A stretch of DNA of 48,459 nucleotides from a bacterium (GTDB lineage Bacteria; Zhuqueibacterota; QNDG01; DTFT01), in NCBI GenBank assembly GCA_016933415.1, contig JAFGAX010000070.1:1-48459 (forward strand), given 5' to 3'. This document shows, in pieces, positions 3,535 to 17,361 of the stretch; position 1 is the first letter of the stretch; the number at the start of each line of letters is the position of its first letter. The position numbers were made by a program, and so were the translations under genes. The notes beneath the pieces are model-generated. The model searched no databases, had not been told where the DNA came from, and saw nothing but the letters and a program-made list of their open reading frames with translations.

Positions 3535-4974
3535 TTGAAGGCATGGCAATGGAGTTCGACGATACTGTTCGTTTTGTCCGTGGCCGGGGCGCCGGCCCGG
3601 GATGTCCCGAAGTCCGCCGCAGTGCTCCGCGTCTTTCAGACCGCCAAGGACACACCGGACCGTCTGGCGGAGAAGGCATCGCTTTCATTCGAATCCGTGC
3701 CGGCCGACGCGTTTTTCGACAACCGCATCACCTCGGTCTGGGTGGAGCCGGCGCGGACGTATCAGACCGTCGAGGGCTTCGGCGGCGCCTTCACCGAGTC
3801 CGCGGCCGTAACCTTCTACAAGCTCAGCCCGGCGAAGCGCGCGGCCGTGCTCGATGCGTATTTTGATCCCGTCCGCGGGAACGCGTACACGCTCTGCCGC
3901 ACGCACATCAACAGCTGTGATTTCTCGACCGGAAACTACGCGTACGCCGAGACACCCGGCGATTCCGGGCTGAAGAAATTCACCATCGAAAGGGACCGGA
4001 AGGCGCTGATTCCCCTGATCCGCGAGGCGTTCCGCACGGCCGGCGGTCCGCTCAAGCTGTTCGCCTCTCCGTGGAGCCCGCCGGCCTGGATGAAAACCAA
4101 CGGGAAGATGAACAACGGCGGCAAGCTGAAGCCGGAATGCCGCGGGGTCTGGGCGGAATACTTCGTCCGCTTCATCCGCGAATACGCGAAAGAGGGGATC
4201 CCGATCTGGGGCCTGACACCGCAGAACGAGCCGGAGGCCACCCAGACCTGGGATTCCTGCGTATTTACGGCAGGGGAACAGCGCGACTTCATCCGCGACC
4301 ACCTGGGACCCGCGCTCGAGCGGGCCGGGCTGTTCAGCGTCAAGGTGATCGGGTACGACCATAACCGGAACCGCCTGCCCGAATGGGCGGAAACCATCCT
4401 GTCCGACCCGGACGCCCGTCGGTACGTGTGGGGCATGGGATTTCACTGGTACGTCAGCGATAATTTCGACAATGTGCGGCTGGCGCACGAAATGTTTCCG
4501 GACAAAGCCCTGTTGTTCACCGAGGGGTGCCTCGGGCCCTATGACGCAACGAAACTGGACGACTGGAGCAAGGGCGAAGCCTACGGCAAATCCATACTCG
4601 CGGACCTGAACCGCTGGACCGTGGGCTGGGTGGACTGGAACATCCTGCTCGACGAGACCGGAGGCCCGAATCACGTGGGTAATTTCTGCTTCGCGCCGAT
4701 TCACGCGGATACGCGGACCGACAGCCTGCATTTCATGAATTCCTATCACTACATCGGCCATTTCTCCAGGTTCATCAAACCGGGCGCGGTGCGAATCGCG
4801 TCCGCCGCTTCCGTGGACGAGCTGGAAACCACGGCGTTCCGGAATCCGGACGGTTCCCTGGCGCTCGTGGTCCTGAATCGGACCGGCGAAGCGGTTCCCT
4901 ATGCGGTCAGGCTGGGGGAAAGGTCCGCGAAAACAGAGAGCCCGGCGCATTCGATACGGACGTATGTCTTTTAA
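3535..4974 (+). CDS. Secreted GH30 family glycosidase
   Basis: 479 aa with a short signal peptide (MKAWQWSSTILFVLSVAGAP). The sequence is that of glycoside hydrolase family 30 (glucosylceramidase / beta-1,6-glucanase type): VEGFGGAFTESAA near residue 80, SPWSPPAWMKTN near 180, the acid/base glutamate in PQNEPE (E232) and the nucleophile in LLFTEG (E330). The C-terminal 80 residues form the usual small beta domain. Family members cleave beta-linked glucosides or xylans by a retaining mechanism; the exact substrate cannot be read from the sequence. The start is a TTG, chosen because AAGGAGG lies at 3523-3529, 5 bases before it. The gene stands alone, followed by a terminator at 5061. Confidence 0.88.
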   Translation: MKAWQWSSTILFVLSVAGAPARDVPKSAAVLRVFQTAKDTPDRLAEKASLSFESVPADAFFDNRITSVWVEPARTYQTVEGFGGAFTESAAVTFYKLSPAKRAAVLDAYFDPVRGNAYTLCRTHINSCDFSTGNYAYAETPGDSGLKKFTIERDRKALIPLIREAFRTAGGPLKLFASPWSPPAWMKTNGKMNNGGKLKPECRGVWAEYFVRFIREYAKEGIPIWGLTPQNEPEATQTWDSCVFTAGEQRDFIRDHLGPALERAGLFSVKVIGYDHNRNRLPEWAETILSDPDARRYVWGMGFHWYVSDNFDNVRLAHEMFPDKALLFTEGCLGPYDATKLDDWSKGEAYGKSILADLNRWTVGWVDWNILLDETGGPNHVGNFCFAPIHADTRTDSLHFMNSYHYIGHFSRFIKPGAVRIASAASVDELETTAFRNPDGSLALVVLNRTGEAVPYAVRLGERSAKTESPAHSIRTYVF

Positions 4975-5327
4975 GATGCAAAGCGCACAGGGCGACGCTC
5001 ATGACGCAAAGCGCACAGCGCAAAGCGTACAAGGCGAAGCGCGTGGCGGATAACAGGAGGAAGACGGGAACCCTCTAAAAGAATGTTCCCGTCTTTCTCT
5101 GGAATGGGTCGTGAACCAGTTCGGGAAGCCTGAAAACCGGACCCAGCCGCTTCCCGGAAAGCCATGGGATATGACGAAGGCAGACCAATCCAAATCATAT
5201 CATATTGATATTAATGCCGTTAATACGGTTTAAGTTTCAATTCTCCGCCTCTTTTCCGGTCGATTTTCATATACTTTTTTCAAAAAATTACGTACATTCA
5301 AACAGACGGGGGAATAGGAGCGTATCT
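4975..5327. other. Intergenic region with short repeats before nfeD
   Basis: 353 bp. Just after the GH30 stop, gcaaagcgcacag occurs twice (about 4978 and 5005), followed by degenerate copies of the same word (caaagcgtacaagg), probably a decayed tandem repeat. Then comes the terminator at 5061-5095. The last 130 bases are AT-rich and probably hold the nfeD promoter, but I cannot pick a convincing -35/-10 pair. Confidence 0.5.
5061..5097 (+). terminator. Hairpin terminator after the GH30 gene
   Basis: A perfect 11-bp stem (aagacgggaac, 5061-5071; gttcccgtctt, 5085-5095) with a 13-base loop. The T-run is weak (TCTTTCTCT). A closely similar hairpin follows the sigma-factor gene at 36381, so this is one of a repeated terminator family. 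Confidence 0.6.
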
Positions 5328-6632
5328 ATGAGATTATTAAAGCATTCTGAGGTCTTCAGGGGGTTCCTGACGGCTTTATTCCTGCTCGGCGCAACCGGGC
5401 TGGGAACCGCGAATACCGTGGAAGTTCTGAAAATCGAAGGCGCGATCACGCCCGTGACCGCAAAATACATAGATGAGGCCATCCGCCTGGCCGAAGACAA
5501 CCAGGCCGAGTGCCTGATCATCCAGATGGACACGCCGGGCGGTCTCATGGAAGCCACCTGGAAAATCGATAAATCCATTCTCGCCTCCCTGGTGCCCGTC
5601 ATCGTGTACATCTCTCCCAGCGGAGGCAGGGCCGCCTCAGCCGGTGTCTACATCTCATACGCCAGCCACCTCATCGCCATGGCGCCTTCCACGCATCTGG
5701 GATCCGCGCATCCGGTCGCCATGGGCGGGCAGGACTCCTCGAAGACCATGATGGAGAAGATCACCAACGACGCGGTGGCCCATATCAAGGGTCTGGCCGA
5801 GAAGCGGGGCCGGAACGGCCAATGGGCCGAGCAGGCGGTGCGCGAAAGCGTCTCCATCACCGAAACCGAGGCGGTCTCGAAGAAAGTCGCGGAACTCATC
5901 GCCAAGGACCTCGGCGATCTGCTGGACCAGCTGGACGGACGGACGATCAGGCTCGACAGCGGCGCAGAAAAGACGCTTCAGACAGCGGAGGCCCGGATCC
6001 GGCACTCCGCCATGGACTGGCGCTACCGAATCCTCGACAAGATATCCGATCCCAACATCGCCTATATCCTGATGATGCTCGGCATTTACGGCCTGTTTTT
6101 CGAACTGTCCAATCCGGGCGCCATTCTGCCCGGCGTGATCGGCGGCATTTTTCTGATCCTCGCGTTTTTCGCCCTGCAGGTGCTCACGGTGAATGCATCG
6201 GGTGTTCTGCTCATTCTTCTCGCCATTCTCTTTTTCATCATCGAAGTGAAGATCAACAGCCATGGATTGCTGGCGATTGGAGGAATTGTGGCCATGTTTC
6301 TGGGATCGCTCATGCTGTTCAAGTCCCCGGAAATGCGGGTTTCATTGAGCATCATTGTCACCGCCGTCCTCTGCTCGGCCCTGTTTTTCCTTTTCGCACT
6401 GGCGCTGGCGGCCCGGGCGCACCGGCTGAAAATCACCACCGGCGGAGAGGGTCTGGTCGGCGAGACCGGAACGGTCGTGGATGCCATACGCGGCGAGGGC
6501 AAGATTTCCGTGCACGGGGAAATCTGGGCGGCCCGCAGCGGAAAACCGGTCAAGAAAGGCGAAAAGGTGATCGTCCGGTCGGTCGACGGACTTATTCTGG
6601 AAGTGTCTCCGGTCGAGAGCCGGGGGAAGTGA
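5328..6632 (+). CDS. nfeD: NfeD-family membrane serine protease (long form)
   Basis: 434 aa. A signal/membrane segment ([14 protein letters not shown]) leads into a ClpP-like domain (about residues 30-240) with [11 protein letters not shown] and the protease core [14 protein letters not shown], whose second Ser is the family's nucleophile. Four or more membrane helices follow (about 250-365), then a C-terminal OB-fold NfeD domain (about 370-430: [21 protein letters not shown]). Long-form NfeD proteases cleave the C-terminal tail of their slipin partner; the slipin gene lies 109 bp downstream, matching the conserved pair. The ATG at 5328 was chosen because it starts the signal segment and AGGAG lies 8 bases before it; an in-frame start at 5205 lies in AT-rich leader and is unlikely. 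Confidence 0.9.
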
Positions 6633-6741
6633 TTTTCCGCGTAACTCCGTCCGTTCACACGGTTCCCGCCGCGGCTTAAACGGGGAATCCGAAAGCCGCG
6701 GAAGGGAGTCTTCATCACACACCCATGTATGGGAGGTTGTC

Positions 6742-7500
6742 ATGTCCACTTCATTGGTTGTTGTGCTCTTTTTCGTTTTCTTCCTTCTGGCCAACTCCAT
6801 CCGCATCCTGCGGGAATACGAGCGGGGCGTCATTTTCCGCCTGGGGCGTCTGATCAAGGCCAAGGGCCCGGGACTGATTCTCCTGATTCCGGTCGTCGAC
6901 AAGATGGTCAAGGTCAGCTTGCGCACCATTCCCATGGAAGTGCCCGCGCAGGATGTGATCTCGAAGGACAACATCTCCGTCAAGGTGAATGCCGTGGTGT
7001 ACTTCCGCGTGATCGACGCAAACAAGGCCGTCACCGACGTGCAGGACTACCTGTACGCCACATCCCAGCTCGCGCAGACAACGCTCCGGTCCACACTCGG
7101 CCAGTTCGAGCTCGACCAGCTTCTGTCGGAACGCGAGACCATCAATGAAAAGCTCCAGGACATACTCGACAAGCACACGGGGCCCTGGGGCATCAAGGTG
7201 GCCCTGGTGGAGGTCAAGAATATCGATCTTCCGGACGAGATGAAGCGGGCCATCGCGCGGCAGGCCGAGGCCGAGCGCGAACGCCGGGCCAAGGTCATTC
7301 ACGCGGACGGAGAATTCCAGGCGTCGCAGAAGCTGGCGGACGCGGCTCATATCCTCGGCAAGGAACCGACGTCCATGCAGCTTCGCTTCCTCCAGACCCT
7401 CGTGGAGATCGCGGCGGAGAACAATTCGACCACTTTGTTCCCGATTCCGATCGATCTGTTCAAGCCTTTCCTGGAAAAAGCGGTGGAATCGAAAAAATAA
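6742..7500 (+). CDS. Slipin (SPFH/stomatin-like membrane protein)
   Basis: 252 aa. An N-terminal hydrophobic anchor ([16 protein letters not shown]) is followed by the SPFH/band 7 domain ([21 protein letters not shown] through about residue 190). The helical C-terminal part ([18 protein letters not shown]) is the oligomerisation region typical of slipins. These proteins form ring-like membrane microdomain scaffolds. Pairing with NfeD immediately upstream is a classic conserved operon and supports the identification. The ATG follows GGGAGG with a good spacing. Its C-terminus ends in the hydrophobic [17 protein letters not shown]; such a segment is what the archaeal NfeD homologue cuts. Confidence 0.92.
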
Positions 7501-7624
7501 GCGTCCTCCGCCGGCCGGAAGGCGAACAGCGGTAGGACGGGATCCCCGTCCCCGCCGCATCAAATGGATCCGTCCGGCCGGATGGAACGGAATTGAGCGT
7601 TGAAGCGAAAAAACAAAGGGAAGC

Positions 7625-7987
7625 ATGGATAACCGAATCAAAACGGGCCTCTGGCCGCGGGTGAAATCGGCCGCGGGCTGGGGCCTCTTTCTGGGCATCT
7701 GCGACTATGTGGTGGCCTGGAGCATCACGAACGACATCACCGCATGGGCGGTGCGCGCCGTCGTGCTCGTCCAGACCCTCATGGGCGCTGCGATCGGAGC
7801 GGAGAAATGGTCCGCGTCCTGGTGGGTGAAAGGCCTCGTGTTCGGGCTCGGGTTCAATATCCCGCTGGCCGCGGGACTGGCCCTGCTCGGCGGGGGTTGG
7901 GGGAAAACCCTGGCCGTGTGGATCCCGATAACGGGCGCGGCCATCGGTCTGTTCACGGAATGGATCATGAACAGGAACAGGCCGTGA
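7625..7987 (+). CDS. Small four-helix membrane protein, unknown function
   Basis: 120 aa, almost entirely hydrophobic, with four probable membrane helices at about residues 18-35, 40-58, 66-89 and 92-113. The sequence is not one I recognise. Its stop overlaps the start of the FMN-binding protein gene (TGATG), so the two are translationally coupled. An integral membrane partner next to an exported flavoprotein would fit an electron-transfer role, but this is inference from position only. AAAGGGAAGC precedes the ATG. Confidence 0.7.
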   Translation: MDNRIKTGLWPRVKSAAGWGLFLGICDYVVAWSITNDITAWAVRAVVLVQTLMGAAIGAEKWSASWWVKGLVFGLGFNIPLAAGLALLGGGWGKTLAVWIPITGAAIGLFTEWIMNRNRP

Positions 7988-8391
7988 TGAGAATCCTTAA
8001 AACAGCGGCGCTAAGCTTCTGTCTTGTGACGGCCGTGAACCTGCGGACCGTCGGGTCCGTCAAAGCAGTCACCGGCACCGGCGCGGTCCCGGCCGCGTCC
8101 AGCCTGAACCTCAGGGACGGGATATACAAGGCCGAGAGCCCGGGCTGGACCGGCATGGCTGTGGCCGTGCATGTCGAAGACGGCAGGCTGGCCTGCGTCG
8201 AGGTCCTGAAGGCAAAGGGCACACCCCGGTATTATAACCGCGTCGTGCGTCGCCTGCCCGTTCTGATGAAGGAAAAGGGATCCCCTGAAGTCGACGGCAT
8301 CACCGGAGCCACGCTGTCCTGCAACAGTCTGAAGGAGGCGGTGCGGGCCGCGCTGAATCAGGCCCGGCCCGACACCCTGCCGTCCCGGTAG
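7987..8391 (+). CDS. Exported FMN-binding domain protein
   Basis: 134 aa: a signal peptide (about residues 1-27) and a single FMN_bind domain. The conserved DGITGATLSCNSLKEAV near the end contains the [S/T]GAT motif whose Thr receives covalently bound FMN in NqrC, RnfG and related proteins. The modification is made by ApbE flavin transferase, encoded in this window at 12781. The short single-domain form resembles proteins used in extracytoplasmic flavin electron-transfer chains. Coupled by a 1-base overlap to the membrane protein upstream; AmmeMemoRadiSam genes follow. Confidence 0.85.
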   Translation: MRILKTAALSFCLVTAVNLRTVGSVKAVTGTGAVPAASSLNLRDGIYKAESPGWTGMAVAVHVEDGRLACVEVLKAKGTPRYYNRVVRRLPVLMKEKGSPEVDGITGATLSCNSLKEAVRAALNQARPDTLPSR

Positions 8392-8459
8392 GTTCCCGTG
8401 CGTTCCCGAATTCAAATTCCCCGGGCGGTGTACGCCGCGCGGGAAAAAGGGCGGCGCGG

Positions 8460-9575
8460 TTGAAGACCGCGTTTACCCGGAGACGTTTCCTCGCGGCCGC
8501 AGCCGCAGCCGCGGCAGGCGGCCTGACCAGCCCGGCCGGCCGCCTCTGCGGCGCGGAACGGCCGGCCGGCAGAGAGGCCCGTCATTACCGCAGGCTCGCG
8601 GGAAACAAGGTTCAATGCGGCCTGTGCCCCTGGGAATGCCTGGTGGACGACGGAAAGCGGGGTAAATGCGGCGTGCGGGAGAACCGCGGCGGCCGCTTCT
8701 ACAGCTTGGTCTATGGACGGGTAGCGGCGTCTCACGTGGACCCGATCGAGAAGAAGCCGTTCTACCATCTGCTCCCGGGCAGTCCCGCTTACTCCATGGC
8801 AACGGTGGGGTGCAATTTTGACTGCCGGTTCTGCCAGAACTGGGATCTGGCCCGGAGGCGTCCGGAGGAAGCCCCTGTCCCCGAGCTTTCCGCCGAATCC
8901 GTCGCGGAAGCGGCGGCTCGCGCCCGATGCCCGGTGATCGCCTTCACGTATTCCGAGCCCACGGTATTCAACGAGTTTGCGTTCGACACGGCCGCGGCGG
9001 GCCGGCGTCTGGGCATCCGGAGCGTGGTGGTTTCGAACGGATTCATCCGCAGGGAACCGCTCGAGGACCTGTGCGGCGTGATCGACGGGTATAAAGTCGA
9101 TTTGAAGTCCATGGACGACAGATACTACCGGTCCGTGTGCAGCGGCCGGCTGGCGCCGGTGCTCGAGACTTTGGTCCGGCTGCGTGACCGGAAAGTGTGG
9201 TGCGAAATCGTCTATCTCGTGGTTCCCACGCTCAACGATTCCGACGCCGGTTTCCGAATGCTTTCGCAATGGGTGCTGAAAGAGATGGGGCCGGACGTAC
9301 CGGTCCATTTTTCCCGTTTCTATCCGCAGTACAAACTAAACAACCTGCCGCCGACGCCCGCGGCCACGCTTGAGCGCGCCTGGTCCATCAGCCGCGAGGC
9401 GGGGCTGCATTTCGTCTATCTCGGCAATCTGCCGGGACACGAGGCGGAGAACACATTCTGTCCCGGATGCCACAAGGCCGTCATTCTCCGCTCCGGCTTC
9501 TCCGTGAAGGAAACGCATCTTCGCGACGGACGGTGCGGTTTCTGCGGACGCGTCATACCGGGCGTCTGGGCCTGA
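8460..9575 (+). CDS. amrS: AmmeMemoRadiSam system radical SAM enzyme with Tat signal
   Basis: 371 aa. Cys-rich N-terminal segment C53-x2-C56-x3-C60-x9-C70, radical SAM motif CNFDCRFC (C118, C122, C125), a standard SAM-binding barrel, and a C-terminal zinc-ribbon-like part (CPGC...CGFC). This is the AmrS family, whose reaction is unknown; it always occurs with AMMECR1 and Memo homologues, which here follow 19 bp downstream as a fusion. The N-terminus MKTAFTRRRFLAAAAAAAAG is a good twin-arginine signal, so the folded iron-sulfur protein is predicted to be exported. The start is TTG at 8460; its ribosome site is weak, but the Tat motif fixes the frame and approximate start. Confidence 0.88.
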   Translation: MKTAFTRRRFLAAAAAAAAGGLTSPAGRLCGAERPAGREARHYRRLAGNKVQCGLCPWECLVDDGKRGKCGVRENRGGRFYSLVYGRVAASHVDPIEKKPFYHLLPGSPAYSMATVGCNFDCRFCQNWDLARRRPEEAPVPELSAESVAEAAARARCPVIAFTYSEPTVFNEFAFDTAAAGRRLGIRSVVVSNGFIRREPLEDLCGVIDGYKVDLKSMDDRYYRSVCSGRLAPVLETLVRLRDRKVWCEIVYLVVPTLNDSDAGFRMLSQWVLKEMGPDVPVHFSRFYPQYKLNNLPPTPAATLERAWSISREAGLHFVYLGNLPGHEAENTFCPGCHKAVILRSGFSVKETHLRDGRCGFCGRVIPGVWA

Positions 9576-9594
9576 CCGAAAGGAGGGTCGCGCC

Positions 9595-11115
9595 ATGAAA
9601 CGCAGCGGATGGACCGTTGCCTTTCTGGTTCTCGGATTCTGCCTGTCGTTCTGCCACCAGCGGCAGACGGTTGCGGCCCGGGTGAGGCCCGCGGCCCGGG
9701 CGGGCCAGTTCTACGCCTATTCCGCGACCGAACTCCGCGAGCAGGTCCGGCTCTGCATGTCCAAAGCCGGGGGCGCGGTCCTGAAAGGGGAGATCCGGGG
9801 GATCTGGGCGCCGCACGCGGGCTATGAATACAGCGGCGCGATCGCGGCCGCGGCCTATCGGCAGGTGGCCGGCCGGTCCTACGACGCCGTGCTGGTGGTC
9901 GGACCCAGCCATTACCGGGCGTTTCGGGGCGCGGCCGTGGCCGACTGGGATTCCCTCGCCACGCCTCTCGGCCGTATCGCCGTAGACCGCGGCCTGGTCC
10001 GCGCGCTCACGGCCGCGGATCCGTGGATCACGGTGGTTCCCGGCGTAGACGACGGAGAGCATTCCGTCGAAGTCCAGCTCCCGTTCATCCAGGACGCCCT
10101 TCCGGGAGTGCCGGTCGTGCTGATGCTCACGGGGGACATGCCGCATGACCAGGCTGACAGGATCGCCCGGGCCATTGCCGGGGCCTGCGCCGGCCGGCGG
10201 GTGCTGCTGGTCGCCAGTTCGGATATGTCGCATTTTCCGTCCGCCTCGGACGCACGCCGCTCGGACGCGGAAGTGCTTGCGGCCGTTTCGAAATACGACA
10301 CGAAACGGATTCTGGCGCTCGAGGCCGGGTCGCGGACCCGGGGAATCCGGAATCTGGACTGCGCGCTGTGCGGTTCGGGCGCCCTGGTCACTGTCATGCT
10401 GGCGGCCCGCGCCATGGGCGCGGACCGCGCGGTTCAGCTGGCCTATGCCCATTCGGGGGATGTCACCGGCGACCCGGAGCGGGTGGTCGGGTACGGGGCG
10501 GCAGCCTTTGTCGGTCCGGTCGGTTCACTCAGCAAAGGAGGCGGCAACGTGGAACCGGAATCGCTCAAATTCACAGAGAGTGAGAAAAAAACGCTGTTCC
10601 GTGCGGCGCGTCAGGGCATTCTCGCCGCGCTGGGCGGACAGCGGCCCCCGGAATTCAACATCGAGTCGCCGAATCTGCTCGTCAAGCGCGGCGTGTTCGT
10701 GACCCTGGAGAACCGGGGCCGGTTGCGGGGGTGCATCGGGCATTTCGAGCCCGACCTGCCCCTGTTCGAAATCGTGTCCCAAATGGCCGTCGCGGCCGCA
10801 ACCCAGGATTACCGGTTTGCCCACAACCCGGTCACGGAACGCGAGATGAAGGATATCCACATCAAGATTTCCATCCTGTCCCCGCTCAAGAAGATCGATT
10901 CCGTCGAGGAAATCGAAGTCGGCAGGCACGGCATCTGGGTCCGGCAGGGCATGCGGAGCGGCACCTATCTGCCCGAGGTGGCGGCGGACATGGGCTGGAC
11001 GCGGGAGCAGTTCCTGGAAAGCTGCTGCGCCGAGAAAGCCGGCCTCCCGCCCGACGCCTGGAAGAAGGGCGCGGACATTTACGTTTACACCTCGCAAGTC
11101 CTTCAGGAAAAATGA
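9595..11115 (+). CDS. amrB: AmmeMemoRadiSam B-A fusion (Memo plus AMMECR1)
   Basis: 506 aa. Residues about 27-300 form a Memo-like domain (RPAARAGQFY..., WAPHAGYEYSGAIAAAAY, VGPSHYRAFRG, SSDMSHF), related to extradiol dioxygenases. Residues about 325-500 form the AMMECR1 domain (LVKRGVFVTLENRGRLRGCIG, ISILSPLKKID). The two are separate genes in many genomes and fused in others. The N-terminus is a Sec-type signal (VAFLVLGFCLSFCHQ); the LSFC could be a poor lipobox. Together with the Tat signal on the preceding radical SAM enzyme, this suggests the whole module works outside the cytoplasm. AAAGGAGGG precedes the ATG. Confidence 0.9.
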   Translation: MKRSGWTVAFLVLGFCLSFCHQRQTVAARVRPAARAGQFYAYSATELREQVRLCMSKAGGAVLKGEIRGIWAPHAGYEYSGAIAAAAYRQVAGRSYDAVLVVGPSHYRAFRGAAVADWDSLATPLGRIAVDRGLVRALTAADPWITVVPGVDDGEHSVEVQLPFIQDALPGVPVVLMLTGDMPHDQADRIARAIAGACAGRRVLLVASSDMSHFPSASDARRSDAEVLAAVSKYDTKRILALEAGSRTRGIRNLDCALCGSGALVTVMLAARAMGADRAVQLAYAHSGDVTGDPERVVGYGAAAFVGPVGSLSKGGGNVEPESLKFTESEKKTLFRAARQGILAALGGQRPPEFNIESPNLLVKRGVFVTLENRGRLRGCIGHFEPDLPLFEIVSQMAVAAATQDYRFAHNPVTEREMKDIHIKISILSPLKKIDSVEEIEVGRHGIWVRQGMRSGTYLPEVAADMGWTREQFLESCCAEKAGLPPDAWKKGADIYVYTSQVLQEK

Positions 11116-11123
11116 GAAAACCC

Positions 11124-11152
11124 TTGTAATTTCAGGTGAAAAAGGCTACATT
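11124..11152 (+). promoter_or_regulatory. Promoter of the second STAS gene
   Basis: TTGTAA at 11124-11129, a 17-bp spacer and TACATT at 11147-11152, placed in a short AT-richer gap, with the start codon 36 bases downstream. It would give the STAS gene its own transcript separate from the AmmeMemoRadiSam genes. Confidence 0.5.
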
Positions 11153-11187
11153 TCCCGGATAATGGACCATGCGCATCGGAGGCATGC

Positions 11188-11532
11188 ATGAAAGTGGACG
11201 TGAAAGAACAGGGCACTGCGGCGGTCCTTCTCGTCAAGGGAAACCTGATGGGGGGTCCCGAGACGCTGGCGGTTCATGAAAAGGTCCGCGAGCTGGTCGG
11301 CCTGAAGAAAACGAATGTGGTGATCGATCTGTCCGGCGTGGCCTGGATCAACAGTTCGGGCCTGGGCATGCTCATGGGATGCCTCACGTCGATCCGGAAC
11401 GCGGGCGGGGAGATGCGGGTCACGGGCGTGACGGAGAAGGTCAAGAATCTGTTCGTGATCACCAAACTCATCACGTTATTCGAAACCTATGAAACGGTCG
11501 ACGAGGCGGTCGCCTCTTTCGGTTCGAAATAA
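11188..11532 (+). CDS. STAS-domain anti-anti-sigma factor
   Basis: 114 aa, a complete SpoIIAA-like STAS domain: VVIDLSGVAWINSSGLGMLM carries the regulatory Ser pair, followed by TSIRNAGGEMRVTGVTEKV. Such proteins counteract a serine-kinase anti-sigma factor. CGGAGG sits just before the ATG. It has its own promoter and a strong terminator (11559-11585), so it is a single-gene unit. It is unlike the STAS protein at 2901 outside the core motif, so the two probably serve different partners. Confidence 0.88.
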   Translation: MKVDVKEQGTAAVLLVKGNLMGGPETLAVHEKVRELVGLKKTNVVIDLSGVAWINSSGLGMLMGCLTSIRNAGGEMRVTGVTEKVKNLFVITKLITLFETYETVDEAVASFGSK

Positions 11533-11558
11533 ACGGGTTTCCGGCATTTCCGGCGGTC

Positions 11559-11588
11559 AACGGGCGGGGAATGGACCCGCCCGTTTTC
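11559..11588 (+). terminator. Terminator after the STAS gene
   Basis: A perfect 10-bp GC-rich stem (aacgggcggg, 11559-11568; cccgcccgtt, 11576-11585) followed by TT and a short T-rich end. It separates the STAS gene from the prenyl synthase and argues that the latter's start is downstream of 11590. Confidence 0.65.
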
Positions 11589-11707
11589 ATAGGGCCGGTT
11601 CGCGCGGCAGGTTCGGACCGGACAGCCGGGGCGGGCGGACCCGCAGCGGGGCGGACATCCGAATTCCTGCGGTTGCGTCCGCCTGCGGACGAGGCTTGAG
11701 CGCGGCC

Positions 11708-12781
11708 ATGCTCCGGAACGCCTCGGCTCCGGTCGCTTCCGCGCTGGAGCGGTTCGAAACGGAATTCATCGCGTCGCTCGATGCCGCGGAGAGCGCCGGC
11801 CATCCGGCCCTGAAGGCATCCCGCCTGCTTTCCGGCAAGCGGCTTCGGCCACTGCTCCATCTGCTCGCGCAGGGCGCCGCGGATCCCGAACGGCCGCCGG
11901 AACCCGGCGCCGCGGTTCTCATCGAACTCCTGCATATCGCGAGCCTCCTCCATGATGATGTGGTGGACGGCACAGACAGGCGGCGCGGGTTGAAAAGCCT
12001 GAACGCGGCCGAAGGCAACCGGTTCTCCGTGCTGTCCGGCGACTACCTCATGGCAAAAGCGCTTTCCCTGGCGCTCGGCTTTCCCGATCCCATCGTCACG
12101 CCTGCCCTGTCCCGCGCCCTGCTCGTCATGACCGCCGCGGAGTTGAAGCAGGCGCTGTCCGGCGGCGCCGCGGTGGTGTCCGAATCGGAGGTGCTTGAGA
12201 TCGCCTACGGCAAGACCGCGTGCCTGATGGAGACGGCCTGCGAACTCGGAGGCCGTCTGGCCGGAGCGGACGAAGGCCGGGTCCGGGCGCTGGGCCGGTT
12301 CGGCCGCCATTTCGGCCTTGCCTATCAGATCCGGGACGACATTCAGGACGTCACGGGAGACTCGAAGACACTCGGCAAACCGGTCGGACAGGACGCCAGC
12401 GGCGGGAGATGGACGCTCCCCCTGGTCTACAGCCTGGAGGCATCCGGCGCCGCGGACCGTAAAGCGTGCATGCGCCGCATGGCAAGAAGGACCGCGGCGG
12501 ACGTCGCGTGGATTCACGCGTTCATCCTGCGTCACGGCGGCGCGGAGGCGGCTGAACGGAAAGTGGACGCGGAGCTCGGTGAAGGGGTCCGGCAGCTGTC
12601 CGGTTTCCCGGAATCCGACTGCCGTTCCGGTCTGATTCTGCTTTGCGGCCGGCCGGCCTTCGGCAGGACCGGAACCGCCCCCGGTCAGGAGAAGGATGCG
12701 CCGGAGCAACTGCCGGATCCGGAGCGAAATTCGGCACACACCGGCTTCGGCACGCTCCGGTGTGCCGGGGAAGGCCTTTGA
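11708..12781 (+). CDS. Polyprenyl diphosphate synthase
   Basis: 357 aa. Both aspartate-rich substrate motifs of trans-prenyl synthases are present: DDVVD at 83-87 (HDDVVDGTDRRRG) and DDIQD at 210-214. KRLRP near residue 44 and the KT of AYGKTACL near 165 are also conserved. The enzyme extends allylic diphosphates with isopentenyl diphosphate, making the side chain of a quinone or an undecaprenyl-like lipid. The last 40 residues extend past the usual family end and are rich in Gly, Pro and Glu. The start is uncertain: the ATG at 11708 is preceded by GAGG at a long distance, and a TTG lies at 11696. Its stop overlaps the apbE start (TGATG), so the two are coupled. Confidence 0.85.
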   Translation: MLRNASAPVASALERFETEFIASLDAAESAGHPALKASRLLSGKRLRPLLHLLAQGAADPERPPEPGAAVLIELLHIASLLHDDVVDGTDRRRGLKSLNAAEGNRFSVLSGDYLMAKALSLALGFPDPIVTPALSRALLVMTAAELKQALSGGAAVVSESEVLEIAYGKTACLMETACELGGRLAGADEGRVRALGRFGRHFGLAYQIRDDIQDVTGDSKTLGKPVGQDASGGRWTLPLVYSLEASGAADRKACMRRMARRTAADVAWIHAFILRHGGAEAAERKVDAELGEGVRQLSGFPESDCRSGLILLCGRPAFGRTGTAPGQEKDAPEQLPDPERNSAHTGFGTLRCAGEGL

Positions 12782-13890
12782 TGATTGCATCGACTCAGCG
12801 GCGTCACGTCGCGCTTGTCATCCTATCCGTCCTGCTGGCCTGCCTGTCGGCATGCCGGAGGAGCCGCCTCGCTTCTCCGGTGATTGCCGAGGCTTTTCTG
12901 GTCGACACCCACGTTAAAATTTCGGTTTTCGACGCCGATTCAGGCGAAACGGGCGCCCGGGCGGCTGTTCAGAAATGCATCCGTGAAATGCGCGCGGCAG
13001 AGGGCCGCACCACGGCGCATGTGGACACCAGCGACATCGCACGCGTCAATGCCGCTGCCGGCAGGCGGCCGGTGGCGGTCGGCCCGGAAACCCGCGGCCT
13101 GATTGAAAAGGCCGTTGAAGCGTCGCGTCTGACCCGCGGCGGATACGACGCCGTTCTGGGCGGGCTCAAAATTCTCTGGGGATTCGGAACCGACCGGACG
13201 GCGGTCCCGGACAAGGCCGAGTTGAACCGACGTCTCCGGGTCTCCGGAATGCGCCAGCTCGAGCTCGGGGACGGAACCGTTTTTCTGAAGAACAGCGGCG
13301 CGTCCATGGATCTCGGCGGGCTCGGAGAGGGATACCTGATCGACCTGGCCGTGCGGTCCCTGCGCGGCAGCGGTGTCCGTTCCGGTATCGTGGAGGCCAC
13401 GGGCGATCTCGCGGCTTTCGGCCGGCATCCGGAGCGTCCGTACTGGCGCATCGGCGTCAAGAATCCGCGCGACCCGGAAGGCCGCCTCATGGGGGTGATC
13501 CGGCTGGGGGGGGAGGCGGTCTCAGAGGGTCGTTTTGTGACGACCCTTCAACGTCTCTTCGGGGTGATCCGCCTGAAGGATGAGGCCGTGGCCACATCGG
13601 GCGATTATGAAAGGGTTTTCATCGAGAATGGAAAACGCTACTGCCACATCATCGATCCACGGACCGGTTTCCCGGCCGCGTCCGGGTGCATCAGCGTGAC
13701 CGTGGTGGCTCCGGCCGCATTGGATGCCGACGCGCTGGCCACGGGTCTGTTCACGCTCCATCCGGATACGGCCCTGGCGGTGATCGAGAGCCTGCCGCAT
13801 GTCGAGGGCATTGTCATGACCGAGGCCGACGGCGTCGTTCGCCAGAAGGTTTCCTCGGGTTTGAAGAACCGGTACGACGCGGCGGAATAG
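12781..13890 (+). CDS. apbE: FAD:protein FMN transferase, lipoprotein
   Basis: 369 aa. The lipoprotein signal ends in LACLSAC, placing the enzyme on the periplasmic side of a membrane. ApbE motifs follow: DTHVKISVF, NSGASMDLGGLGEGYLID, AVATSGDYERVF and HIIDPRTGFPA with later DADALATGLF. The enzyme transfers FMN from FAD to a Thr in [S/T]GAT motifs, such as the one in the FMN-binding protein at 7987. It overlaps the prenyl synthase by one base. An insertion of 23 aa (from 13492) interrupts the usual GVIRLKDEAVATSG by repeating GVIRL; it carries a small DNA hairpin. The insertion lies in a loop before the conserved motif, so activity may survive. Confidence 0.93.
   Translation: MIASTQRRHVALVILSVLLACLSACRRSRLASPVIAEAFLVDTHVKISVFDADSGETGARAAVQKCIREMRAAEGRTTAHVDTSDIARVNAAAGRRPVAVGPETRGLIEKAVEASRLTRGGYDAVLGGLKILWGFGTDRTAVPDKAELNRRLRVSGMRQLELGDGTVFLKNSGASMDLGGLGEGYLIDLAVRSLRGSGVRSGIVEATGDLAAFGRHPERPYWRIGVKNPRDPEGRLMGVIRLGGEAVSEGRFVTTLQRLFGVIRLKDEAVATSGDYERVFIENGKRYCHIIDPRTGFPAASGCISVTVVAPAALDADALATGLFTLHPDTALAVIESLPHVEGIVMTEADGVVRQKVSSGLKNRYDAAE
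13492..13560. repeat. In-frame 69-bp insertion/duplication inside apbE
   Basis: The words ggggtgatccg-ctg occur at 13492 and 13561, 69 bases apart, so the reading frame is kept. Between them is a perfect 8-bp hairpin (agggtcgt, 13526-13533; acgaccct, 13540-13547; loop tttgtg). The encoded residues (EAVSEGRFVTTLQRLF) have no counterpart in the ApbE family as I know it. Confidence 0.55.
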
Positions 13891-13989
13891 TTCCGGGTTC
13901 CGCGTTCCGGGTTTAAACAGAAGAACAGATGGAATTATCTTTCAACCCGGAACCCGGAACTCGGAACCCGGAACCCGGAACCCGGAACG
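13891..13989. repeat. GGAACCC-rich inverted repeat
   Basis: The left arm (13891-13913) is built of ttccgggttc units; the right arm (13944-13989) repeats cggaaccc five times. The arms are complementary over more than 15 bp. It lies between apbE and the UXS-like gene and could terminate transcription. A second member of the family is at 23777-23858. Confidence 0.6.
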
Positions 13990-14061
13990 CTTTCTTAACC
14001 ATGAACCATGAACTTTTCAAGATGAACCGATTCGTCGATTGATCAGAAAAGAAGGAAGCAC

Positions 14062-15018
14062 ATGCCAAGAACTCTCGTCACGGGCGGCGCTGGATTTCTC
14101 GGGTCGCATCTCTGCGAGGCCCTGCTCCGCCGCGGGCACGAAGTCATCGCCATGGACAATCTGCTCACCGGCTCGGTGGACAACATCAGTCACATCCGGA
14201 GCGACCGCTTCTCGTTTATACGCTACGACGTCACGAATTACGTGTACGTGGACGGACCGCTGGACTATATCCTGCATTTCGCGTCCCCGGCCAGCCCGCG
14301 CGATTATCTCGAGTTTCCCATCCAGACGCTGAAGGTCGGCTCGCTGGGAACGCACAAGGCGCTCGGTCTCGCACGGGAGAAGAAAGCCGTTTTTCTGCTC
14401 GCCTCCACCTCCGAGGTGTACGGCGATCCGCTCGTCCATCCCCAGCCGGAAACCTACTGGGGCAACGTCGATCCGGTCAGCCCCAGGGGCGTGTACGACG
14501 AGGCCAAGCGGTTCGCGGAGGCGATCACCATGGCCTATCACCGTTCCCACGGCGTGGACACCCGCATCGTCCGCATCTTCAACACCTACGGTCCGCGCAT
14601 GCGGCCCGAGGACGGCCGGGCGGTGCCCGCTTTCGTCCCGCAGGCCCTGCGGGGAGAGCCGATCACGGTTTTCGGGGACGGGAGCCAGACCCGGAGCTTC
14701 TGCTACGTGACGGACCTGGTCGACGGCATTCTGCGCCTGCTGGAGTCCGGCATACACACGCCGGTGAACATCGGCAACCCGGACGAGCGGACCATACTGG
14801 AACTGGTCCACGCCATTCTCGAGATTACCGGCAGCGACAGCGCCGTCGTCCACAGGCCTCTGCCGGTGAACGACCCCAAGGTCCGACAGCCCGACATCAC
14901 ACTGGCTCGGATCCGTCTGGAATGGGAGCCGAAAGTCAGCCTGGAGGATGGATTGAAAACCACCATCGACTGGTTCCGCCGCAAGCTGGGTATGTCCGAT
15001 GCCGGCTCCCGGGCGTGA
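14062..15018 (+). CDS. NAD-dependent UDP-glucuronate decarboxylase-like epimerase
   Basis: 318 aa, extended SDR family. The NAD-binding motif [15 protein letters not shown] is at the N-terminus, the catalytic Ser/Thr region is [10 protein letters not shown], and YDEAK is the YxxxK pair. The phrases [50 protein letters not shown] and [17 protein letters not shown] are characteristic of UDP-xylose synthase (UXS), which converts UDP-glucuronate to UDP-xylose. The product could supply xylose or a related sugar to the LPS genes downstream: its 3' end overlaps the GT9 gene by 20 bases. AAGGAAG precedes the ATG. Confidence 0.87.
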
Positions 15019-16060
15019 AGTAAGGCCTGTGCCCGAGCCGCGAAATGTGCTCCTGATCCGCTTCGGCGCGATGGGTGATGTGATTCTCGCAACGCCCGCC
15101 ATCCGGGCCGCGGCCGCGGCCTGCGGGGCCGGGCGGATCGATTTTCTCACCAAGTCGGCATATCGGCCCCTGGTGCGGAACCACCCGTCCATGGGCCGCG
15201 TGCTGAAGTTCGGGGGCAGGGACGGAGCGGGGTTTTGGAGTATGGTTCGGACCGTGCGTGCCGGCCGATACGACGCGGTGATCGATCTGCAGAACAGCTG
15301 GCGCAGCCGTTTCCTGAGTCTGTTCTCCGGCGCAGAAACGCGGGGCACGGTGAAAATCGGCCGCTGGAAGCGGTTTCTGCTGGTACGTTGCCGCCGCGAC
15401 CGGTACGGGGATGTCCTGCCTGTGCCGTTGAAATACCTGGCCGCGGCATCCGTGATCGGCGCCCGGGATGACGGGAAGGGGCTGGATCTGGCCGTGGATC
15501 CGGAAGAGTCGGAGGCCGCTGCCGGCCTGCTGAAATCGGCCGGGCTCGCAACGGGCAGGCCGCTTATCGCGCTGGCGCCCGGCGCCGGTCGCGCCACCAA
15601 ACGCTGGCCGGCGGAGCGTTTCGGCGCAGTCGCCTCAGCTTTCATTGCAAGGGGATACGCCGCGGCTTTCATCGGGGGGGAGGCGGATAAACCGGCCTGC
15701 GCCGAAGCCCTGAAAAGCGCGGGCGGACCCTCGGCGGATCTGGCCGGTGTTTTCTCCCTGGCCGGAACAGCCGGCCTGATCAGCCGGTCCAGACTGCTGG
15801 TCACCAATGACACCGGGCTCATGCACATGGCCACGGCTCTGCGGGTGCCCTGCGTCGCGGTCTTCGGCCCGACGACGCGCCATTTCGGCTTCTTCCCGTT
15901 CCGCGCGGCCTCCGCCGTGGTCGAGAAGCCGCTCGCGTGCAGACCCTGCTCCTACCACGGCACGGACCGGTGTCCGCAGGGGCATTTCCGCTGTATGCTG
16001 GACATCGAGGCCGGGGAGGTGCTGTCCGCGGCCGAACGGTTACTGATTCCGGAGAACTGA
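14999..16060 (+). CDS. GT9 (heptosyltransferase-like) glycosyltransferase
   Basis: 353 aa. The fold and motifs are those of glycosyltransferase family 9 (WaaC/WaaF/WaaQ): [23 protein letters not shown] at the N-terminus, [20 protein letters not shown] at the start of the second domain, and [29 protein letters not shown] near the nucleotide-sugar site. It adds heptose or another sugar to the LPS inner core on the cytoplasmic face of the inner membrane. It overlaps the UXS-like gene by 20 bases and waaA by one base, showing tight coupling. A GTG at 15030 is an alternative start. Confidence 0.88.
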
Positions 16061-17361
16061 TGGATTCCTTCTATTACGCGGTGTATAACGCGGCCGTTCT
16101 GCCGCTGCTCAGGTTCGCGCTGTTCCTGGGCGCGCTGGTCGATCCCAAAATCCGGCGTGGGCTGAAGGGCCGCAGCGGGCTTTTCAGCCGCCTCGAATCG
16201 GAAACCGCCGGATGCGCCGGCCGTTCCCCGCGTTTCTGGATACACACCAGTTCCATGGGAGAGTTCGAGCAGGCCAAGCCCGTCATCGCCGGACTGCGGG
16301 CCCGGTTTCCCGACGCCTTCATCGCGGTCAGTTTTTTCTCTCCCTCCGGGTACGAGAATGTCCGGTCTTTTCCCGGCGCCGACCTCCTGACCTACATCCC
16401 ATTCGACACCAGGCGGAACGCCGGCCGTTTCCTCTCCATCCTCAGGCCCGACGCCGGAATCGTGGTGCGTCACGACATCTGGCCGAACCACACCGCCGAG
16501 CTCAAGCGGCGGGGCATTCCCGCGTTTCTGATCAACTTCTCGCTCCGTTCCGCGCCGGCGTACCGCAGGTTCTGGACCCGGGGCATGATTCGCATGTGCG
16601 TCCGGCCCTTTGACCATGTGCTCGCGGTTTCGGAACAGACCGCGGACGTGAGCGAAAAATTCAGCCTCTCATCGGTCCGGCCCGAGGTGGCGGGGGACAC
16701 GCGCTACGACCAGGTCGTGCGGCGGACGGAAAACGCAGAGGCCGCGGCCGGGCCCCTGCGGCCTTTGAAACAGGGGCGTTTCGGCATCGTGTTCGGCAGC
16801 ACCTGGCCCACGGACGAGGCCGTGATCACGCCCGTTCTGAAGGCGCTTGCCGTGGAGCATCGCAGGCTGTGGTCGGTTTGGGTTCCGCACGAGCCCACGG
16901 CGGAGCACCTGCAGAACGTCGAATCGCAATGCGCCGGCGCGGGACTTCGGTGTGTCCGGCTTTCGGGTCTTCCGGATGCGCGCGGCGGCGCTTTCGATGT
17001 GCTCCTGGTGGACCGCATCGGCATTCTCGCGGGCCTGTACGCACTGGCGGACGCCGCCTTTGTCGGCGGCGGATTCGGGCCCGGCGTGCACAGCGTGCTC
17101 GAACCCGCGGCTTTCGGAATCCCGGTTTTCTTCGGACCCCGGTGCAGGAATTCCCACGAGGCCGGTCAGCTTGAATCGCGCGGCGGCGGATTTCTCGTCC
17201 GGGACGCTGATTCCTTTCTCCGCGTCCTCCGGCCCATGGTCAACGACTCCGCTGTTCTCAAGAAGGCGGGCGCGTCCGCGCTGGCCCTGGTGCGCGAGAA
17301 TATCGGGGCCACGGACCGCATCGTGCGCCGCCTCGAGGAACGGGTGAAGCCGCGTGCTTGA
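16060..17361 (+). CDS. waaA: 3-deoxy-D-manno-octulosonic acid (Kdo) transferase
   Basis: 433 aa, normal family length. An N-terminal membrane anchor (VLPLLRFALFLGALV) leads to the GT-B fold with WIHTSSMGEFEQAKPVI (the SxGE catalytic region), VVRHDIWPNH, VAGDTRYDQV, FGSTWPTDEAVI and GGFGPGVHSVLEPAAFGIPVFFGP. It transfers Kdo from CMP-Kdo to lipid A precursor, so the cell makes LPS. The ATG overlaps the GT9 stop (ACTGATGG). The 3' end overlaps the start of the first ECF ATPase by 8 bases. Confidence 0.93.
   Translation: MDSFYYAVYNAAVLPLLRFALFLGALVDPKIRRGLKGRSGLFSRLESETAGCAGRSPRFWIHTSSMGEFEQAKPVIAGLRARFPDAFIAVSFFSPSGYENVRSFPGADLLTYIPFDTRRNAGRFLSILRPDAGIVVRHDIWPNHTAELKRRGIPAFLINFSLRSAPAYRRFWTRGMIRMCVRPFDHVLAVSEQTADVSEKFSLSSVRPEVAGDTRYDQVVRRTENAEAAAGPLRPLKQGRFGIVFGSTWPTDEAVITPVLKALAVEHRRLWSVWVPHEPTAEHLQNVESQCAGAGLRCVRLSGLPDARGGAFDVLLVDRIGILAGLYALADAAFVGGGFGPGVHSVLEPAAFGIPVFFGPRCRNSHEAGQLESRGGGFLVRDADSFLRVLRPMVNDSAVLKKAGASALALVRENIGATDRIVRRLEERVKPRA

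Follow-up and report, generated by a model that had tools for sequence, protein, structure and literature searches.

Our results suggest that the AmmeMemoRadiSam module of a bacterium from the phylum Zhuqueibacterota works outside the cytoplasm. The module, which consists of the radical SAM (S-adenosylmethionine) enzyme AmrS and the proteins Memo and AMMECR1, is encoded in a stretch of 48,459 nucleotides (contig JAFGAX010000070.1 of assembly GCA_016933415.1; this whole stretch is hereafter called the window). The window is contig C37 of its genome (G000; 2.7 Mb in 227 contigs, 76% complete). AmrS starts with a twin-arginine (Tat) signal that is conserved across a clade, and the Memo-AMMECR1 fusion starts with a Sec-type signal. 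The catalytic motifs are intact, and both proteins co-occur with a membrane protein of ~720–870 amino acids, composed of seven transmembrane (TM) helices, a spermidine-synthase-like domain and another seven TM helices (hereafter the 7TM-SpdSyn-like-7TM protein). We give a probability of about 0.6 to the reading that the window encodes an extracytoplasmic AmmeMemoRadiSam pathway, which would receive its SAM from, or share it with, the 7TM-SpdSyn-like-7TM protein and its electrons from lineage-specific carriers. This figure and the gradings below are judgements, not computed values.

AmrS of the window matches the AmmeMemoRadiSam radical SAM model TIGR04337 with 359.5 bits (cut-off 220) and Pfam Radical_SAM (PF04055) with 75.4 bits (cut-off 29.5). 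Its N-terminal sequence, MKTAFTRRRFLAAAAAAAAGG, combines an RR motif with a hydrophobic region (h-region), and TatC is encoded in the same genome (221 bits), as expected of a Tat substrate. In line with an earlier note on this DNA, which had read a twin-arginine signal at the start of the enzyme, TTG 8460 is the sole ATG, GTG or TTG in the frame ahead of the CGLC motif (codon 8616), which holds the first conserved cysteines; GTG 8643, the candidate after it, falls within the cysteine cluster. Hence, unless translation begins at a rare codon, the signal belongs to AmrS. A start downstream of the signal, considered in the same note, is ruled out for this AmrS by the start-codon scan. The AlphaFold2 model of AmrS has a mean pLDDT (predicted local distance difference test) of 90.9, with low values for the first ~35 residues. 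The radical SAM cysteines of the CX3CX2C motif (C118, C122 and C125) and, in the SAM-binding loop, the EP pair (E166 and P167) are invariant across 22 AmrS sequences, with and without the Tat signal.

The gene directly after AmrS encodes Memo and AMMECR1 as one fused protein, with 232 bits for TIGR04336 (cut-off 26) and 168.4 bits for TIGR04335 (cut-off 99), so that the genes of the module are contiguous. The Sec-type signal that had been proposed for this fusion is also borne out: the N-terminus is hydrophobic, and ATG 9595 is preceded by AAGGAGGG. An alternative in-frame start, GTG 9682, would delete the signal, but no ribosome site was seen before it. The signal reads LSFC in the window and LSAC, a canonical lipobox, in a relative of the same genus. 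Among 15 exported fusions, Memo residues H74, H106 and C259, which we take to be ligands, and the AMMECR1 motif LRGCIG are invariant.

The signal of AmrS is not a peculiarity of the window. A TIGR04337 search of 59 genomes (the source genome and 58 relatives) gave a match in 57 of them, above the cut-off in 52, and many contained two copies. We compared 108 non-redundant AmrS loci, 58 assigned as Tat and 50 as non-Tat. This set leaves out duplicates (L001–L031, with 1.5-kb flanks), a partial locus (L081), weak matches (L083–L085), loci with the N-terminus cut by a contig end (L032/L052 and L046), the AmrS copies of G036, G048, G053, G054 and G057, in which the Tat signal was not seen, and the AmrS fragments of G026 and G055, in which it was present. 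A strict test (RR plus a hydrophobic segment) was passed by 52/58 Tat loci versus 0/50 non-Tat loci, and by 31 of the 747 other long open reading frames (ORFs) of the same loci, which rules out chance occurrence of the RR motif. When KR was also admitted, 55/58 Tat loci passed versus 0/50; the other three (L034, L044 and L069) fail both tests and were placed in the Tat set by eye. A hydrophobic stretch without RR lies upstream in 3/50 non-Tat loci.

In a quick maximum-likelihood tree of AmrS, from which the signal columns had been removed, a single change divides the 58 Tat from the 50 non-Tat loci, with the root resting on a very distant outgroup. The window falls within starred Tat clades of 10 and 38 members. 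Named members with a Tat signal belong to the Thermodesulfobacteriota, Acidobacteriota, Planctomycetota, Bacteroidota, Ignavibacteriota, Bacillota and Pseudomonadota, and to metagenome-assembled genomes (MAGs) labelled as Myxococcota. Of seven extended AmrS copies from Bacillota, five have RR and a lipobox after the h-region, and two have a plain TM anchor instead of RR; the lipobox pattern is matched by 8 of 54 other Tat loci. Hence, the concern that close relatives might lack such signals family-wide does not hold. With genuine signals throughout the clade, the best reading places this radical SAM enzyme and its partner outside the membrane, and we regard export of the module as very probable.

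The partner follows the same pattern. A Memo-AMMECR1 fusion adjoins AmrS in 33/58 Tat loci versus 0/50 non-Tat loci. Fused and stand-alone Memo were distinguished by ORF length, Pfam and profile A5. By ORF length, the fused form is found in 39/59 genomes, that of the window included, and not in the other 20; this count takes edge fragments in G011, G014, G021 and G046 as present. The fusions have a hydrophobic N-terminus, which the stand-alone Memo proteins of the same genomes lack. Therefore, a cytosolic and an exported AmmeMemoRadiSam set appear to coexist in most genomes examined; the cytosolic proteins are paralogues of the exported ones, and most genomes of the phylum encode them as a set of their own at other loci. 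The observation is thus larger than first stated: it concerns a clade trait, and a second, exported enzyme set in this bacterium and many of its relatives. Some relatives also contain a third Memo-like paralogue (e.g., G033:C46 and G012:C145; open frames of ~395–490 amino acids, ~120–176 bits), which differs from both the stand-alone and the fused form.

Our results further link the exported set to the 7TM-SpdSyn-like-7TM protein. Its gene adjoins 11/58 Tat AmrS loci versus 0/50 non-Tat loci, and is also adjacent to AmrS in L263 and L278 and to the exported Memo-AMMECR1 in L293. In the source genome, it does not lie near AmrS (G000:C169:68284-70536). A search with profile A2, built from 11 copies, found the protein in 39/59 genomes (435–976 bits, or contig-edge fragments in G029, G041, G050 and G055); the remaining 20 gave nothing, or a match to part of the profile of no more than 178.6 bits. 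The genomes with the protein and those with the fused exported Memo-AMMECR1 are the same 39, and none of the 20 without the fusion has it. A Tat AmrS was seen in 36 of these 39, the window included; in the other three, the N-terminus of AmrS is cut by a contig end (G001 and G008) or the contig ends at the expected AmrS site (G043). Similarly, among 29 named genomes, the protein was found in 25/25 with a signal-bearing AmrS and in 0/4 without, where AmrS of G073 has RK instead of RR and the membrane-protein match is split or partial in G066, G071, G076 and G087. In an additional 23 genomes from the phylum, protein and fusion are both present in 11, both missing in 7 and discordant in 5. Protein and exported set vary together even within families: f8 (G017 versus G013 and G025), f18 (G049) and f7 (G094). 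This co-occurrence makes a functional link between the exported AmrS set and the 7TM-SpdSyn-like-7TM protein highly probable. Two genes from its gene in G007 lies L324:2407-3279, which, judging by its sequence, may be RnfB-like.

Lysine and arginine are richer in the loops that would place the soluble domain outside in 43/43 full-length copies (0.145 vs 0.046 per residue). Since this distribution sets the N-terminus inside, and seven helices precede the domain in the predicted model (mean pLDDT 76.6), the prediction puts the soluble domain outside, with AmrS. All of the best 50 Foldseek matches are spermidine synthases or aminopropyltransferases. Hence, and with helices arranged as 7+7, we dropped the reading of this protein as a transporter of the major facilitator superfamily (MFS). 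According to the available part of PMC10349129, spermidine synthases require the D or E in GxG(D/E)G for binding decarboxylated SAM. This position is non-acidic (L, A, V, P, F, I, M or S) in 46/46 copies, which are therefore unlike spermidine synthases in this respect and would be expected to bind SAM or a related compound, not to produce polyamines. The Asp at what is presumably the catalytic position is retained in 9/46 copies, and the Glu that we assume to bind ribose in 40/46.

Combining these results, AmrS would fold in the cytoplasm, acquire its [4Fe-4S] clusters there and then be exported by Tat, while the Memo-AMMECR1 fusion would be exported by Sec and be lipoprotein-like in some relatives. 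Outside, AmrS would act as a radical SAM enzyme similar to pyruvate formate-lyase (PFL) activase, either on Memo-AMMECR1 or on the substrate of that protein. Its SAM would come from, or be shared with, the 7TM-SpdSyn-like-7TM protein, and its electrons from membrane carriers that differ between lineages: FMN_bind and ApbE in the window, and NapH-like or RseC-linked systems elsewhere. Of these steps, we infer that radical SAM chemistry outside the cytoplasm is somewhat more probable than not. SAM supply is a harder problem than the electrons, and the 7TM-SpdSyn-like-7TM protein is the stronger lead there; its role as the supplier is possible, if somewhat doubtful. A still broader proposal, in which many bacteria of at least seven phyla perform radical SAM chemistry outside, the 14-TM protein brings SAM across the membrane for exported AmrS (in some lineages also for another exported radical SAM protein whose gene adjoins that of AmrS) and the electron is given by iron-sulfur or flavin carriers of the membrane, is rather unlikely to hold in full.

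The earlier note had suggested the neighbouring flavoproteins (Table 1) as the electron source. The FMN_bind protein (PF04205, 41.2 bits, cut-off 22; its start, ATG 7987, overlaps the preceding stop) contains DGITGATLS, presumably a flavinylation motif. ApbE scored 241.6 bits for PF02424 (cut-off 25.6) and 124.3 bits for NF007774, under the equivalog cut-off of 498. Yet, FMN_bind adjoins AmrS at only 2/58 Tat loci, the window and L042 (G006), and in most other loci of the order its slot is filled by a GNAT-like gene. Of the order's 10 Tat loci, 7 have ApbE near AmrS, and in the remaining three the examined stretch stops short of its position; at the other 48 Tat loci, it was not found within the 7 kb examined. 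These counts rule out FMN_bind and ApbE as general partners of AmrS, so that the suggestion survives at most for this lineage, in which ApbE is conserved wherever the stretch reaches its position. FMN_bind, flavinylated by the neighbouring ApbE, is unlikely to be the dedicated donor of exported AmrS, although both genes carry export signals and extracytosolic flavinylated carriers are established (PMC8238504, available part). Electron supply outside the cell that differs by lineage is plausible, as a NapH-like membrane 4Fe-4S protein occurs near 5/58 Tat loci versus 0/50, and RseC near 4/58 versus 0/50.

Table 1. Features of the window around AmrS.
Feature	Coordinates	Strand	Basis or remark
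Small membrane protein, no family match	7625..7987	+	Kept at this place in the order, 10 Tat loci (cluster 19)
Small FMN_bind protein with DGITGATLS and a signal-like N-terminus; a candidate for carrying electrons in this lineage	7987..8391	+	PF04205 in ORF 7744-8391
AmrS, AmmeMemoRadiSam system radical SAM enzyme, Tat-signal form	8460..9575	+	TIGR04337, AlphaFold2 model
Twin-arginine signal and low-confidence linker of AmrS, ~38 residues	8460..8573	+	RR motif, alanine-rich h-region, start codons, low pLDDT
Memo-AMMECR1 (B-A) fusion, Sec-type signal	9595..11115	+	TIGR04336, TIGR04335, Pfam Memo and AMMECR1
Signal peptide of the fusion, hydrophobic N-terminus, LSFC	9595..9681	+	AAGGAGGG before ATG
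STAS-domain protein, conserved in position within the order; presumably without a part in the function	11188..11532	+	TIGR00377, 65.5 bits
ApbE, FAD:protein FMN transferase, lipoprotein-like N-terminus	12781..13890	+	Pfam ApbE (PF02424), NF007774

Several other interpretations should be weighed. The 7TM-SpdSyn-like-7TM protein might be an extracytoplasmic SAM-dependent methyltransferase, or a similar enzyme, that acts on the exported substrate of AmrS in the manner of the fungal methyltransferase NHMT, with SAM leaving the cell by another route. This is quite possible, though less than an even bet: the same co-occurrence data, the outward-facing domain and the spermidine-synthase fold found by Foldseek would fit it, and NHMT has likewise lost the acid of GxG(D/E)G (PMC10349129, available part). 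However, it leaves the source of SAM open, two 7TM bundles seem excessive for a mere anchor, and the scarcity of the catalytic-position Asp weakens any reading based on spermidine synthase chemistry. Alternatively, exported AmrS might do no SAM chemistry outside, either because it leaves the cytoplasm pre-loaded or because it serves as an iron-sulfur or redox sensor of the envelope, with PAS/GAF and SpoIIE partners. A PAS/GAF regulator adjoins 15/58 Tat loci versus 0/50 non-Tat loci, and a GAF-SpoIIE protein 11/58, but also 5/50. The lack of a universal electron carrier would suit this explanation as well. We nevertheless consider it quite improbable, because the SAM-binding and cluster residues, needless for a sensor, are invariant in both AmrS forms, and because a SAM-fold membrane protein co-occurs. 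It is very improbable that the signals are merely membrane anchors and the catalytic domain of AmrS stays in the cytoplasm. The two Bacillota copies with a plain TM helix would agree with this, but the charges put the N-terminus inside and hence the enzyme outside, the lipoboxes of the five other Bacillota copies require translocation, and the partner has a Sec signal.

An extracytoplasmic pathway with the 7TM-SpdSyn-like-7TM protein as its source of SAM has several observations against it as well. No electron carrier is universal among the Tat-AmrS loci, and SAM is not known to be available outside bacterial cells. Memo is absent altogether from six genomes with a Tat AmrS (G076, G077, G080, G082, G083 and G085); therefore, exported AmrS cannot always serve Memo-AMMECR1. 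The copies behind profile A2 came mostly from Tat loci, which biases its matches towards Tat genomes. The five discordant genomes (G091, G093, G100, G101 and G103) are all MAGs of 56–86% completeness. Finally, the 7TM-SpdSyn-like-7TM gene is usually unlinked to AmrS in this phylum, although it is linked in some loci of others.

Other neighbours of AmrS deserve mention. A DUF362 protein occurs near 20/58 Tat loci versus 3/50 non-Tat loci. Most of the listed DUF362 proteins near Tat loci carry an RR motif themselves, and in two of the three non-Tat cases, which were inspected, no signal was seen. This rules out DUF362 as a marker of export, and it looks like a partner of both AmrS forms. A second Tat-bearing radical SAM protein, weakly similar to AmrS and PFL activase, adjoins 11/58 Tat loci on the opposite strand versus 0/50 (L054, L056, L058, L062, L063, L070, L071, L074, L076, L077 and L079). 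By eye, tandem pairs of Tat-bearing AmrS lie beside an aminotransferase-like gene in L259 (G068), L260 (G064) and L265 (G065). A Peptidase family C25 (gingipain-like) gene adjoins Tat AmrS in L106 and L097 and, on the opposite strand, in L130; the Pfam assignment was made on the L106 copy only. In L272 (G064), Tat AmrS and a cluster that looks respiratory are arranged divergently; judged from motifs only, the cluster includes multihaem cytochromes and a Tat iron-sulfur protein. In the window itself, gene order over positions 3535-17361 (NfeD, SPFH, STAS, polyprenyl synthase, ApbE, NDP-sugar epimerase, heptosyltransferase-like and WaaA-like genes) is conserved in the genomes of the order.

As far as we know, radical SAM enzymes are considered intracellular because SAM and low-potential electrons are found there. 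In the literature matches listed for radical SAM, twin-arginine and Tat signal, we found none of the phrases periplasmic, exported or extracytoplasmic radical SAM, and nothing that combined radical SAM, Tat signal and extracytoplasmic; a search on SAM exporters returned only a review of yeast mitochondrial carriers. If our reading is correct, the exported AmrS clade, its exported partners and the membrane protein with a SAM fold would mean that SAM and a strong reductant reach the outer face of the membrane. Moreover, AMMECR1 and Memo, uncharacterised families with human members, would gain a compartment and a partner for testing their chemistry.

Compared to known systems, the module resembles the cytosolic AmmeMemoRadiSam form, to which, to our knowledge, no reaction has been assigned: all three proteins exceed the curated cut-offs, the genes are contiguous and the active-site residues are kept. 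It differs by the Tat signal of AmrS and the Sec signal of the fusion. For Memo-AMMECR1 systems, the available part of PMC7159879 cites Burroughs et al. (2019). The solved fold nearest to the AmrS model is PFL-activating enzyme (TIGR02493; PDB 3cb8; TMt 0.81). However, AmrS scored 55.2 bits for TIGR02493, below the equivalog cut-off of 231.75, has additional N-terminal and C-terminal cysteine motifs and is predicted to be exported; hence, it is not filed as a PFL-activating enzyme but may work like one.

Flavinylated extracytosolic electron transfer systems likewise combine FMN_bind and ApbE with export signals, as found beside AmrS in the window, but this pair is not common to the other exported AmrS loci. 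Neither radical SAM nor AMMECR1 nor Memo comes up in the main text of two surveys (PMC8238504, PMC11334425). Of three copies of the 7TM-SpdSyn-like-7TM protein that were scored, two, those of L293 (56.1 bits) and L076 (63.6 bits), exceed the cut-off of 40 of the fused MFS/spermidine synthase family NF037959. In contrast, the copy of the window's genome scored 25, and the model has 7+7 helices. Its nearest described analogue is the fungal NHMT, a seven-TM methyltransferase of secreted LPMOs (lytic polysaccharide monooxygenases), which, in the available part of PMC10349129, also joins 7TM to a spermidine-synthase-like domain without the acid that binds decarboxylated SAM. NHMT needs SAM on the secretory side, and the bacterial protein raises the same question, but differs from NHMT in that the domain is followed by another 7TM bundle and in its co-occurrence with an exported radical SAM enzyme.

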